Assembly (NCBI RefSeq): GCF_020687685.1
Contig: NZ_JAJEWM010000001.1
Span: 1,612,001 to 1,676,000 of the forward strand
Length of the DNA: 64,000 bases
Reading direction: 5' to 3'
Source of the DNA: Tessaracoccus sp. OS52
Lineage (GTDB): Bacteria; Actinomycetota; Actinomycetes; Propionibacteriales; Propionibacteriaceae
The translations under genes and the position numbers were made by a program. Below, one piece after another: positions 33,522 through 47,179 of this stretch. Below the pieces are notes generated by a model. The model made no database searches. It was not told the DNA's origin and saw only the letters and a program-made list of their open reading frames with translations. The first letter of the stretch is position 1. Every line of letters begins with the position of its first letter.

Positions 33522-35282
<1,761 letters not shown>

Positions 35283-35345
35283 CGCCGGCCCTGGTCGGCA
35301 CCGCCGAGGGCTGTTGTGACGGGTCGGTCGGCCTCGATCTGACCA

Positions 35346-35727
35346 GCAGCCGGCTCGATTTACCAGCGTTGTTCACGGCCACCAGCCGTAGAGCGCTGGT
35401 GACGAGCGACAACGCTGGTCAACTGGTGGAAGCGCTGGTGAACCCGTGGGAGCGCTGGTGAACCGTGGGAACGCTTCGACGCGCGGCAGCCGGCTCGATT
35501 CACCAGCGTTGTTCACGGCCACCAGCCGTAGAGCGCTGGTGACGAGCGACAACGCTGGCCAACCGGCGGAAGCGCTGGTGAACGACCAACAACGCTGGTC
35601 AACCGTGGGAACGCTCGACGCGCGGCAGCCGGCTCGATTCACCAGCGTTGTTGACGGCCACCAGCCGTACAGCGCTGGTGACGAGCGACAACGCTGGTCA
35701 ACCCTTGGGAGCGCTGGTCAACCCCCA
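35346..35727. repeat. Tandem array of ~140-bp units with nested inverted repeats
   Basis: Three copies begin at 35346, 35486 and 35625 (140- and 139-bp spacing); the third is cut short near 35727. Each opens with GCAGCCGGCTCGATT, then ACCAGCGTTGT and, 36 bp later, ACAACGCTGGT, a perfect 11-bp inverted pair (35362-35372 and 35409-35419 in copy 1) enclosing an inner ACGGC-CACCA-GCCGT hairpin. The second half of each unit carries further CGCTGGT motifs followed by GAAC or CAAC. The array fills the gap between the small gene at 34980 and rlmN (35283-35742, 460 bp), with no convincing gene in it. Role unknown. Confidence 0.85.
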
Positions 35728-35742
35728 TGCTGGTGGTCCGTC

Positions 35743-36876
35743 TCAGCCGGAAGTCACGTCCTGCTGGGAGGCGGCGAGCTGGCCGCAGGCGCCGTCGATC
35801 TCGCTCCCCCGGGTGTCACGTAGGGTGACGGGGACGCCCCGTCGCTCCAGGGTGTGGATGAAGGCGCGTTCGTCCTCCTTGCGTGAAGCGGTCCACTTGG
35901 ATCCGGGCGTGGGATTCAGCGGGATCAGGTTCACGTGGACCCAGCCCCAGTCCCCGCGCCGCTTCAGTACGTCGGCGAGGAGGTTCGCGCGTGCCACCGA
36001 GTCGTTGATGTCGCGCATCATGGCGTACTCGATCGACACGCGGCGCTTGGTGCGCTGGGCGTAGCCCCACGCAGCGTCGACCACCTCGTCGACCTTCCAG
36101 CGGTTGTTGATCGGGACGATCTCGTCCCTGAGCTCGTCATCCGGGGCGTGCAGGGAGACCGCCAGGGTGAGCGGAAGGCCCTCCTCCGTGAGCTGGTGGA
36201 TCTGCGGGACGAGGCCGACGGTGGAGACCGTGATGCCGCGCGCGCTCATGCCGAAGCCACCCGGTGAGGGTTCGAGCAAGGTGCGGATGGCACCCATCAC
36301 AGCCTTGTAGTTGGCCAGCGGCTCCCCCATCCCCATGAAGACGATGTTGTTGAGCCTGCCCGTGGCCCCGGGCACCTCGCCCGCGGCGAGCATCCGGTTG
36401 GCCGCGAACGCCTGGATGGTGATCTCGGCCTGCGACAGGTTGCGCTTCAGGCCGCCCTGTCCCGTGGCGCAGAACGGACAGGCCATGCCGCAGCCGGCCT
36501 GCGACGAGATGCACAGCGTGGAGCGGTTGGGGTAGCGCATCAGGACGGACTCCAGCAGCGAGCCGTCGTGGAGCTTCCAGAGGGTCTTGACGGTGGCGCC
36601 CTTGTCCGCCGTTCGGCTGGTGACCTGCTCGAGCAGACGCGGGAAGAGCTGCTCGGCCAGTTCCTCCCGAATTGACGCAGGAACGTCGGTCCAGGCGGCA
36701 GGATCGTCGGAGAGATGGTCGAAGACGTGGCGGGAGATCTGCTCCGCACGGTACTTCGGCAGCCCGAGCTTCTCCGTGGTCTCCCGGCGCTCCTGATTCG
36801 TGAGGTCCAGCCAGTGGCGCGGTGGCTTGCCGCGCCGCGGCGCCTCGAAGACGAGCGGAAGAACAGTGGTCATCAT
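35743..36876 (-). CDS. rlmN: Dual-specificity 23S rRNA/tRNA adenine-C2 methyltransferase RlmN
   Basis: 377 aa. Radical SAM enzyme methylating A2503 of 23S rRNA and A37 of some tRNAs. The cluster motif C-x3-C-x2-C is CGMACPFC (about residues 129-136), preceded by [21 protein letters not shown] and the SAM-binding [12 protein letters not shown]-like region follow, and the C-terminal acceptor cysteine lies in EIDGACGQL. It starts inside the cdsA stop (ATGA). Confidence 0.95.
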
Positions 36877-39998: not shown

Positions 39999-40958
39999 TT
40001 ACTTGGTTTCGGTGGTCTCGTCGACGGTGTCCTCATCGGCCTGGGCAGGAGCCTCAGCGACCTCAGCCTCAGCAGCAGGAGCCTCAGCGACCTCAGCCTC
40101 AGCGACCTCAGCCTCAGCGGCAGGAGCCTCAGCGGCAGGAGCCTCAGCGACCTCCGGGGCGGTGGCTTCGGCCTCGGCCGCAGCAGTCTCCGCCTCGGAC
40201 TTGGCGAGGAGTTCGAGCTCCCAGTCGGGCATGGGCTCAGCGACGGCCTCGTCTCCCGACTTCCCGGACGAACGCTCGATCAGGCCTGCCGCGACGGCGT
40301 CGGCGACGATCCGGGTGAGCAGTGCAACAGAGCGAATCGCGTCGTCATTGCCGGGGACGGCGAAGTCGACCTCGTCCGGGTCGCAGTTGGTGTCGAGGAT
40401 GCCCACGACGGGGATGTGCAGCTTGCGGGCCTCGTCGACGGCGAGGTGCTCCTTCTTGGTGTCGACGATCCAGACCGCCTGCGGGGTCCTCGACATGTCG
40501 CGGATGCCGCCGAGGGTCTTGTCGAGCTTGATCTTCTCCCGCTCGAGCTGCAGCAGTTCCTTCTTGGTGAGGCCGCTTGCCGCCACGTCGGTGAAGTCCA
40601 TGACCTCAAGCTCCTTGAGGCGCTGGATGCGCTTGGAGACGGTCCCGAAGTTGGTGAGCATGCCACCCAGCCAGCGCTGGTTGACATATGGCATCCCGAC
40701 ACGGGTGGCCTGCTCGGCGATGGCTTCCTGGGCCTGCTTCTTGGTCCCCACGAAGAGGACCTGGCCGCCGCGGGAAACCGTGGACTTGACGAAGGCGTAG
40801 GCCTTGTCGATGTAGCTCAGGGAGAGCTGGAGGTCGATGATGTAGATGCCGTTGCGCTCGGCGAAGATGAACCGCTTCATCTTGGGGTTCCAACGACGGG
40901 TCTGGTGCCCGAAGTGGACGCCGGACTCCAACAACTGGCGGGTGGTGACGACGGCCAT
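39999..40958 (-). CDS. rpsB: 30S ribosomal protein S2
   Basis: 319 aa from the ATG at 40958 (AAAGGAA upstream). The S2 core (residues 1-235) shows [19 protein letters not shown] near the start and [13 protein letters not shown] near 97. The tail after about 245 is an Ala/Glu-rich repeat ([13 protein letters not shown] type), low in complexity and encoded by imperfect repeats of about 15-30 bp (40050-40155). Such tails are common in actinobacterial S2. A promoter and leader hairpin are visible upstream. Confidence 0.96.
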
Positions 40959-44467: not shown

Positions 44468-47179
44468 ATGAAACTTCGCAGTCGCATCGCCGCAGTGTCC
44501 GCGGCGGCCGCAGTGACGCTGACGGGCTTCGGAGCCCTCAGCCCGTTCCCCTTCGCGCAGGCCGCCCCGGCCACGGACCTGATGATCAGCGTCTACGTCG
44601 AGGGCAGCGGCAGCAACAAGGCCATCGAGCTTCACAACCCCACCGATGTGGCCATCGACCTGGCCGGCTACACCGTCGAGCTCTACTCCAACGGAGCGGC
44701 GACGGCCACCAACAGCCTGGGTCTCCAGGGGTCGCTCGAACCCGGAGGTCACTACACCATCACGAACTCGCTCGCCTCGGCCGAGCTTGCCGCTCACAGC
44801 GACGTGACCAGCGCCGTGACCAACTACAACGGTGACGACGCGCTGGTCCTCAGGAAGGGCACCGCCGTCATCGATTCCATGGGACAGGTCGGCTTCGACC
44901 CGGGGACCTCCTGGTCCGCCAACGGGGTGAACATGCTCGACATGACCCTGACCAAGAAGGCCTGCACCGTCGACGCGTCGCCCTCCGATGCCTACGACCC
45001 CTCAGTCGACTTCGCGGCCACGGCCCAGAACGACTTCTCCACGCTCGGATCCGTCGACTGCACAGGCACCGAGCCGTCGCAGACCCCCACCGTCGACCCG
45101 ACGCAGACACCGGAGCCCACCGTCGACCCGACGCAGACACCGGACCCCACCGTGACGCCGACCGTCTCACCCACCCCGACGCAGGACCCGTCGGGACTGA
45201 GCATCGGTGCCGTCCAGGGCACGACGAACACCAGCCCCTATGTGAACCAGACGGTGACGCTGGACGCGTTCGTGACCGCCACCTTCCAGGGCACCGAATC
45301 GGGCCGTGCCCAGTTCAGTGGCTACTACATCCAGGACGCCGGTGACGGTGACGCCGCCACCAGCGACGGCCTGTTCGTCTACGCCCCCAACGGCCCTGCC
45401 CGCAGGGTCGGTGAGGAGATTCGCATCACGGGCACCATCGTGGAGGCCTTCGGCCAGACCCAGCTCAACCCCACCGAGGTCACCGTCCTCTCCACCTCAG
45501 ACACGGCCGCGATCCCCGCCACGGAGCTGACAGTGCCTGTCTCCGACTACGAGCGCTTCGAGGGGATGTACGTGACGTTCCCGCAGCAACTGACCATCCT
45601 TGAGTTCTTCAACTTCGACCGCTTCGGCGAGATCGTCTACGGCCTCGAGCGCCAGTGGACTCCCACCGCCGTGACGGAACCGGGTGCAACCGCTCAGACG
45701 CTCGCCGCCCACAATGCAGCGAGCCGGATCGTCGTCGATGACGGCTTCAACTCCCAGAACGTCTCCCCCGCCATCCACCCCAACGGTGAGCCGTTCGCCA
45801 GGGACAACTACTTCCGCGGCGGCGACAGGGTCGCCAACCTCACGGGTGTGATGAGCTTCCGCAACAGCACTTTCAAGCTGCAGCCCACCCAGGGCGCCGA
45901 CTACACGGCCGCCAACCCGCGCCCGGAGGCCCCCGCGGTCGGCGGCGACTTCAAGGTGGCATCGTTCAACGTCCTCAACTACTTCACGACGCTGAACATG
46001 CGTGGAGCCACGACGCCGGAGGAACTCCAGCGCCAGCAGGCCAAGATCGTCGCGGCGCTGGCGGAGATCGACGCCGACGTCGTGGGACTCATGGAGATCC
46101 AGAACAACGCGCCGACCGCGGTCGCGCACCTCGTCGCCGGACTCAACGCCGCGGTCGGGGAAGGTACCTACGCCTACATCGACACCGGCGTGCAGGGCAC
46201 CGACGAGATCTTCCAGGCCATCATCTACAAGACAGCCACCGCCCAGCCCGTCGGGGATTTCGCGGTGCTGGACTTCAACGACGGCCGCAACCGGCCCAGC
46301 CTGTCGCAGACCTTCCGTCACCGCACCTCCGGTGAACTTGTCACCGTCAACGTGAACCACCTGAAGTCGAAGGGGTCCGCGTGCACCGGGGACCCGGACC
46401 TGGGCGATGGCCAGGGCAACTGCAACCTCACCCGAGTGGCCGCCGCACAGGACATCGTGAAGTGGCTGGCGACGGACCCGACGGGGCAGGGCGCCACCCG
46501 CACCATCGTGCTGGGTGACCTGAACTCCTACGACCACGAGGACCCGATCGACGTCTTCGTCGAGTCCGGGTACACCGACCTGGAGAAGAAGTTCAACGGT
46601 GAGCACGCCTACTCCTACGTGTTCGACGGGCAGCTCGGATACCTGGACTACGGCCTCGCCAACGCTGGTGCGGTTGCCGACGTCGTGGGGGCCGCGACGT
46701 GGCACATCAACGCCGACGAGTCGGACCTGTTCGACTACACCATGCGGTTCAAGGCCGACAACGAGGACGCCCTGTTCGCGGCTGACCCCTACCGCTCCTC
46801 CGACCACGACCCCGTGATCATCGGTCTGCAACTTGGAGGCGGTTCCACCCAGAGCCCCACTCCCGAGCCCTCAGCGACGCCCACGCCCACGGTCACCGTG
46901 ACCGCCGAGCCCACGGCGACCCCCACCGTGACCGCCACGGCAACCGTGACCGCCACCGCCACGGTGACCGCCACCGCAACGGTGACCGCCACCGCAACCG
47001 CCACGGTGACCGCCACCGCGACGGTGACGGCCACGACCACGGCGACGGCGACGACCACGGCGACAGTGACCGAGACGGTCACCGCGAAGCCCGGTCGCGG
47101 TCCGAAGCCGGGCAAGGGTCCGCAGCACCGACCTGGATCGCGTGCCCACCTCGGCCCGATCTGGTGGACGCTCAGCTGA
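44468..47179 (+). CDS. Large extracellular nuclease (ExeM/NucH type) with lamin-tail domain
   Basis: 903 aa. A signal peptide ends near residue 32 (PFAQAAP). A lamin-tail domain follows (about 36-195; NKAIELHNPTDVAIDLAGY), then a Thr/Pro repeat linker (about 198-240), an OB-like region (about 242-365) and an endonuclease/exonuclease/phosphatase domain (about 495-790). The last shows FKVASFNVLNYF, the catalytic Glu in GLMEIQNN, NHLKSKG, GDLNSY and the terminal SSDHDPV. The C-terminus has a TVTA-type repeat and a basic end, without LPXTG. It should degrade extracellular DNA/RNA. It stands alone with a terminator. Confidence 0.88.
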   Translation: MKLRSRIAAVSAAAAVTLTGFGALSPFPFAQAAPATDLMISVYVEGSGSNKAIELHNPTDVAIDLAGYTVELYSNGAATATNSLGLQGSLEPGGHYTITNSLASAELAAHSDVTSAVTNYNGDDALVLRKGTAVIDSMGQVGFDPGTSWSANGVNMLDMTLTKKACTVDASPSDAYDPSVDFAATAQNDFSTLGSVDCTGTEPSQTPTVDPTQTPEPTVDPTQTPDPTVTPTVSPTPTQDPSGLSIGAVQGTTNTSPYVNQTVTLDAFVTATFQGTESGRAQFSGYYIQDAGDGDAATSDGLFVYAPNGPARRVGEEIRITGTIVEAFGQTQLNPTEVTVLSTSDTAAIPATELTVPVSDYERFEGMYVTFPQQLTILEFFNFDRFGEIVYGLERQWTPTAVTEPGATAQTLAAHNAASRIVVDDGFNSQNVSPAIHPNGEPFARDNYFRGGDRVANLTGVMSFRNSTFKLQPTQGADYTAANPRPEAPAVGGDFKVASFNVLNYFTTLNMRGATTPEELQRQQAKIVAALAEIDADVVGLMEIQNNAPTAVAHLVAGLNAAVGEGTYAYIDTGVQGTDEIFQAIIYKTATAQPVGDFAVLDFNDGRNRPSLSQTFRHRTSGELVTVNVNHLKSKGSACTGDPDLGDGQGNCNLTRVAAAQDIVKWLATDPTGQGATRTIVLGDLNSYDHEDPIDVFVESGYTDLEKKFNGEHAYSYVFDGQLGYLDYGLANAGAVADVVGAATWHINADESDLFDYTMRFKADNEDALFAADPYRSSDHDPVIIGLQLGGGSTQSPTPEPSATPTPTVTVTAEPTATPTVTATATVTATATVTATATVTATATATVTATATVTATTTATATTTATVTETVTAKPGRGPKPGKGPQHRPGSRAHLGPIWWTLS
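46887..47080 (+). repeat. Low-complexity Thr/Val/Ala-coding repeat in the nuclease gene
   Basis: Imperfect tandem repetition of about 6- to 18-bp units built from ACCGCCACGGTG-like words encodes TATVTATATVTAT-type sequence near residues 815-870. Such tracts expand and shrink by slippage and may act as a flexible or wall-spanning stalk. Confidence 0.75.

Follow-up and report, generated by a model that had tools for sequence, protein, structure and literature searches.

In the window analysed here, a 64-kb stretch of DNA (64,000 nucleotides) from Tessaracoccus sp. OS52, a tandem array (35346–35727, assigned to neither strand) was found in the gap between a 100-codon ORF (34980–35282, forward strand) and rlmN (35743–36876, reverse strand), and the gap was shown to be convergent, as an earlier note on this sequence had described it. 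TRF gave a period of 140 with 2.7 copies and 90% matches, and a repeat search gave a 113-nt unit present three times at spacings of 140 and 139; the modules are 139–140 bp long. This agrees with the almost three units of about 140 bp reported earlier, except that the interval originally given, 35283–35742, begins with about 55 bp of non-repeat sequence (35283–35340). Each module contains one 58-bp imperfect palindrome, referred to as the core, with the plan ACCAGC-13-ACCAGC-8-GCTGGT-13-GCTGGT. A pattern search placed the three cores on the forward strand at 35362–35419 (core 1, centre CGTAGAGC), 35502–35559 (core 2, with one mutated word, GCTGGC) and 35641–35698 (core 3, centre CGTACAGC). The nested arrangement of inverted repeats that had been noted is thus real: the 58-bp pattern was found three times in the window and 0.00 times in 100 shuffles. 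The 11-bp inverted pair claimed for every unit, ACCAGCGTTGT/ACAACGCTGGT, was seen around the core in copies 1 and 3, but in copy 2 the second arm is ACAACGCTGGC. Further GCTGGT words trail the cores at 20-bp steps on the forward strand: an outward run after core 1 (35414–35459; detected by TRF, as a 20-bp family in the repeat search and by word count) and, by word count, two words 20 bp apart after core 2 (35574–35599) and two words 20 bp apart at 35693–35718, the first being the last word of core 3 and the second one step more. The density of CGCTGGT/ACCAGCG words, put at more than ten and far above chance, was confirmed, with 13 in the interval first noted and 42 in the whole window compared to 15.7 expected.

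The small ORF is conserved in two other Tessaracoccus genomes, G048 (52%), which is the closest relative by RlmN (91% identical), and G041 (41%). In both of these the small ORF and rlmN nearly touch and there is no insert, which corresponds to an empty orthologous site. Since the flanking genes nearly touch in both, the window array appears to have been gained, or to have been lost in the relatives, since the split from G048 and G041. The empty site of G048 is too diverged to define a target duplication at this locus, and neither target duplication nor strain-level movement was seen for the elements in general, with one genome per species compared throughout.

The repeats are not confined to the window. 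In the genome that the window comes from (G000), the family gave 114 blast matches and about 60–66 cores in about 26 clusters. All clusters were intergenic: 15 between tandem genes, five in convergent and four in divergent gaps, and two at contig ends, according to a home-made codon-usage gene model, which missed the 100-codon ORF, the window cluster being really convergent. Word density was 37/kb across the clusters and 1.5/kb elsewhere. Words on the same strand were spaced by 19 (122 cases) or 20 bp (153 cases) and little else, and the centre between the core arms was 8 bp across the clusters. The 19/20-bp steps lie mostly on one side of the core, and this polarity is predicted by an asymmetric centre (C...C or G...G), with counts of 19:0 vs 2:14. 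Comparison of tandem module copies showed 3.1% differences at word positions and 11.0% at other positions, i.e., words change about 3.5 times less often, which indicates that the words are constrained beyond shared descent, as judged from these copies. The p-values of the two tests (5e-8 for the centre and 6e-21 for the words) overstate the case, since copies within one cluster are non-independent. The 14-nt spacers were 82% alike within a cluster and 57% alike between clusters. As a separate observation, only three of the approximately 26 clusters were located in a 1.8-Mb stretch of G000:C1 (200 kb to 2.02 Mb) and a 400-kb sample drawn for the most part within this stretch contained zero cores, the elements being concentrated in the other parts of the genome; a parS search to place the origin of G000 gave no site. 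The repeat gave no match that would indicate its derivation from a phage, a plasmid or a viral contig, and a literature search on repeats in Tessaracoccus or Propionibacteriaceae gave nothing relevant.

The search of relatives that the earlier note had proposed, in addition to that of the genome itself, was carried out at two levels. The exact pattern, searched for in a library of 84,980 species that may omit the window's own genome, matched only in T. bendigoensis (G011). With a covariance model (R1), 20 of 39 Tessaracoccus genomes were found to contain the 58-bp geometry, as were two genomes from a single further genus within the same family; the rest of the class gave only scattered weak matches to the covariance model, with other sequences. 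Loci L196 and L197 from the other genus (G167 and G164) contained perfect-arm hairpins on the 58-bp plan with GCCAGC words. The words vary by species (ACCAGC, GCCAGC, GCCTGC, ACCTGC, and GCCCGC), forming species dialects on a constant geometry. Array-bearing species retain the 20-bp outward steps, and G045 contains near-perfect simple hairpins without arrays. T. bendigoensis was the most element-rich species. Because many copies in G011, G023, G015, and G053 are located at contig ends or in very short contigs, draft genomes probably contain more copies than were counted. Besides, core-like hairpins were found apparently at one site, downstream of the same gene, in G004, G002, and G005 (L078, L082, and L088), with arms that have changed yet are still mostly complementary; this hairpin may be a conserved terminator.

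Outside the window, a gene of G000 (C4:5369–6295) with a 308-aa product was found between two clusters. Homologues showing 44–51% identity were found in G023, G015, G045, and G007, every time with a core on each side. In all five loci one core lies upstream of the gene and the second at its 3′ end, at −17 to 207 bp from the gene and 1072–1270 bp from core to core; in G045 the downstream element (L179:2753–2810) overlaps the final codons. The gene of G000 has an SH3-domain protein gene and a phosphoglucose isomerase gene as neighbours, and no abiEii is located next to it. When the neighbours of the four other loci were read by eye as well, the gene was seen in at least four chromosomal contexts, G023 and G015 having one neighbour in common. 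Because the neighbouring genes differ between carriers, the gene and its two elements appear to have relocated together, as one unit. Among all loci fetched, nine pairs of cores 0.6–2.6 kb apart were present. Five of them enclose this gene, three enclose other genes, namely an Fe-dependent alcohol dehydrogenase (G000), a DUF222/HNH-like ORF (G023; L150:1684–3385) and a serine hydrolase (G041), of which the last two were identified by eye; the ninth pair is 660 bp apart. The DUF222/HNH-like ORF could be a chance occurrence or a second associated nuclease. By tblastn and profile searches, further homologues were found neither in 800 kb of random stretches from two carriers nor in any of the other Tessaracoccus loci fetched. 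T. bendigoensis showed no partner gene at the sampled sites, and a weak tblastn match at L075 was rejected as it falls in an unrelated ORF. Homologues were not confirmed in viral contigs and not found in phages; on plasmids only three Tsukamurella records were found (31–32% identical), and these lack core-like flanking hairpins.

The first approximately 180 residues of the bracketed protein match AbiEi antitoxins (PADLOC, E-values down to 1.7e-17), and Pfam AbiEi_4 was detected in all five bracketed proteins, the G000 member falling below the cut-off. The last approximately 120 residues matched no Pfam model, an NCBIfam search of the protein gave no match, and a profile search for relatives in the PDB gave none that was credible. 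In this C-terminal part, E195, D228, G-E239-x-D241-G, and K245 were invariant in eight proteins down to 31% identity, a pattern from which a putative PD-(D/E)XK-like nuclease is predicted. Those AbiEi proteins that have been characterised repress their own expression by acting on inverted repeats. For AbiEi, the site consists of two 23-bp inverted repeats separated by 3 bp (PMC3985639), and for Rv2827c of four tandem 23-bp repeats (PMC7319586). The 25-8-25 core resembles these operators. What is known of the family, taken together with the word constraint, suggests that the partner protein may bind the elements, and the earlier proposal of a nucleoid-protein or recombination site fits in so far as the words change less often and inverted-repeat binding is known in the family of the bracketed protein.

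A mobile repeat family, which was also among the earlier proposals, is supported by the dispersed intergenic clusters, the empty orthologous site and the bracketing of one gene in several contexts. Taken together, these findings suggest that the repeats propagate themselves as a system, aided by a partner protein of a new type. We give about an even chance to the reading that the window array belongs, as a non-autonomous element, to a genus-wide palindromic family that is REP/RAYT-like and has as its partner the stand-alone AbiEi-family protein, the C-terminal part of which resembles a nuclease. The core arm of approximately 25 bp, with two words 19 bp apart, would be the binding site; two protein copies would each occupy one arm, with the 8-bp centre between them, and additional binding sites would be provided by the 20-bp arrays. 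Nicking or cutting at the palindrome by the C-terminal part would lead to the core being copied or moved to other intergenic places, the copies would spread as non-autonomous elements, and slippage or repair would add more 20-bp steps and whole modules. Mobilisation in trans and nuclease activity are here proposed by analogy with RAYT/REP (PMC2817692). Weighing against this reading are the lack of any observed target duplication or movement between strains, the sampled T. bendigoensis sites with no partner gene, the Tsukamurella homologues with no core-like hairpins beside them, the C-terminal part with no Pfam match and the array-free hairpins of G045. The broader idea of a selfish repeat class, in which an AbiEi-family protein carrying a nuclease-like domain takes the role that the HUH transposase has in REP systems and disseminates the palindromic sites to which it binds, and site and protein co-evolve into per-species dialects, is more tentative, and we place it clearly below an even chance. 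REP-like repeats that lack a RAYT have been puzzling, and the present system offers for them a concrete candidate partner, open to testing, from a family in which none was expected. If proteins of the AbiEi type do spread their own sites, an antitoxin family would become a source of mobile elements and the stand-alone actinobacterial AbiEi members would gain a possible role. The species dialects form a natural series for the study of protein-DNA co-evolution.

Compared to known systems, a similar organization is seen in REP/BIME elements with RAYT transposases (IS200/IS605-like), which share the dispersed imperfect palindromes in intergenic DNA, the clusters of tandem modules with locus-specific filler, the species-specific sequence and the presence of one gene flanked by two copies (PMC2817692). 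In contrast, the bracketed gene here is AbiEi-like and not a RAYT, and a RAYT/HUH (Y1_Tnp) gene was found in none of the 39 Tessaracoccus genomes, with controls matched in five named genomes. The core is 58 bp with four words and 20-bp arrays, compared to 20–40 bp for REP; there is no GTAG/CGTC tag at the stem, the flanks of G000 cores being GGTTY/SAACC by inspection; and no compensatory changes between arms were seen in G000 and G011. Lacking RAYT, tag and compensatory arm changes within a genome, the window family is outside REP/RAYT membership. A 2013 survey of the GTAG/CGTC REP super-families (Di Nocera, PMC3733652), the text of which does not mention actinobacteria, likewise described CGTC REPs without a dedicated transposase and repeats clustered with flanking DNA, but stems of 5–13 bp, whereas those described here are 25 bp. 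The G000 dialect (GCTGGTSAAC) lacks the CGTC tag, although in some of the other dialects the word is followed by GGCGTC. BOX of Streptococcus (boxA-boxB(n)-boxC) is also a modular intergenic element with an inner unit in variable number and a burst-like spread within a lineage, but has terminal inverted repeats and target duplications (PMC3049150), whereas the present family is built on a central palindrome from which 20-bp steps run outward, and showed no duplication. AbiE type IV toxin-antitoxin operators share the AbiEi-type protein and palindromic sites of paired 23-bp repeats, four in tandem for Rv2827c (PMC3985639, PMC7319586). They differ in being one operator, compared to dozens of dispersed sites here, and in that no AbiEii lies beside the G000 gene, the product of which has the extra, putatively nuclease-like part. 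Integron attC sites were also considered, and their GTTRRRY was not seen. E. coli Chi contains GCTGGT too, but the fixed palindromic geometry is unlike Chi.

The elements might serve regulation only, as operator-like sites, dispersed by a different process, of an AbiEi-type repressor or a nucleoid-type protein, with the bracketing reflecting autoregulation or insulation. Autorepression by characterised AbiEi proteins (PMC3985639, PMC7319586), the constrained and helically phased words and the element upstream of the gene in five of five loci are consistent with this. We nevertheless regard this as unlikely, as each of the five loci has another element at the 3′ end of the gene, the changes of context and the empty site point to elements and gene that move or turn over, and the dispersal would still lack a cause. 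It is also rather improbable that an unrelated transposase, undetected or lost, spread the repeats as a MITE- or REP-like family and that the AbiEi-like gene is cargo picked up between two copies. Other genes do occur between two copies, as in G000, G023, and G041, and non-autonomous repeats are often mobilised in trans, but dialect-matched elements enclose this one gene in each of five species and in at least four contexts, Y1_Tnp was found in none of the 39 genomes, and no terminal duplications were seen.

A structured RNA locus, also proposed earlier, was not supported. Bidirectional transcription terminators or 3′-end hairpins that multiplied would account for the convergent gap of the window and for the G045 cores, which are near-perfect single hairpins with none of 12 in a divergent gap. 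The strong predicted folds (z −3.8 to −13) would agree too, but any long palindrome gives such folds. Arms of G000 paired no better than arms swapped in from other loci, those of T. bendigoensis paired worse, and a weak cross-species covariation follows the dialects. This lack of covariation within a genome argues against an RNA function, as do the elements that array-bearing species carry in divergent gaps and the absence of any Rfam match. Terminators, besides, require neither fixed words nor 20-bp arrays, and this explanation is considered very unlikely.

Plain drift of a functionless local minisatellite, which would fit the homogenised spacers within clusters, is refuted by the dispersed family and hardly credible, as about 26 unlinked clusters are built alike, other species retain this layout while using other words, and the word positions are constrained. 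The window contains two other short-period tandem repeats, at 40046–40154 in the alanine/glutamate-rich end of an ORF taken as rpsB and at 46879–47072, and neither of them is related to the hairpin family.
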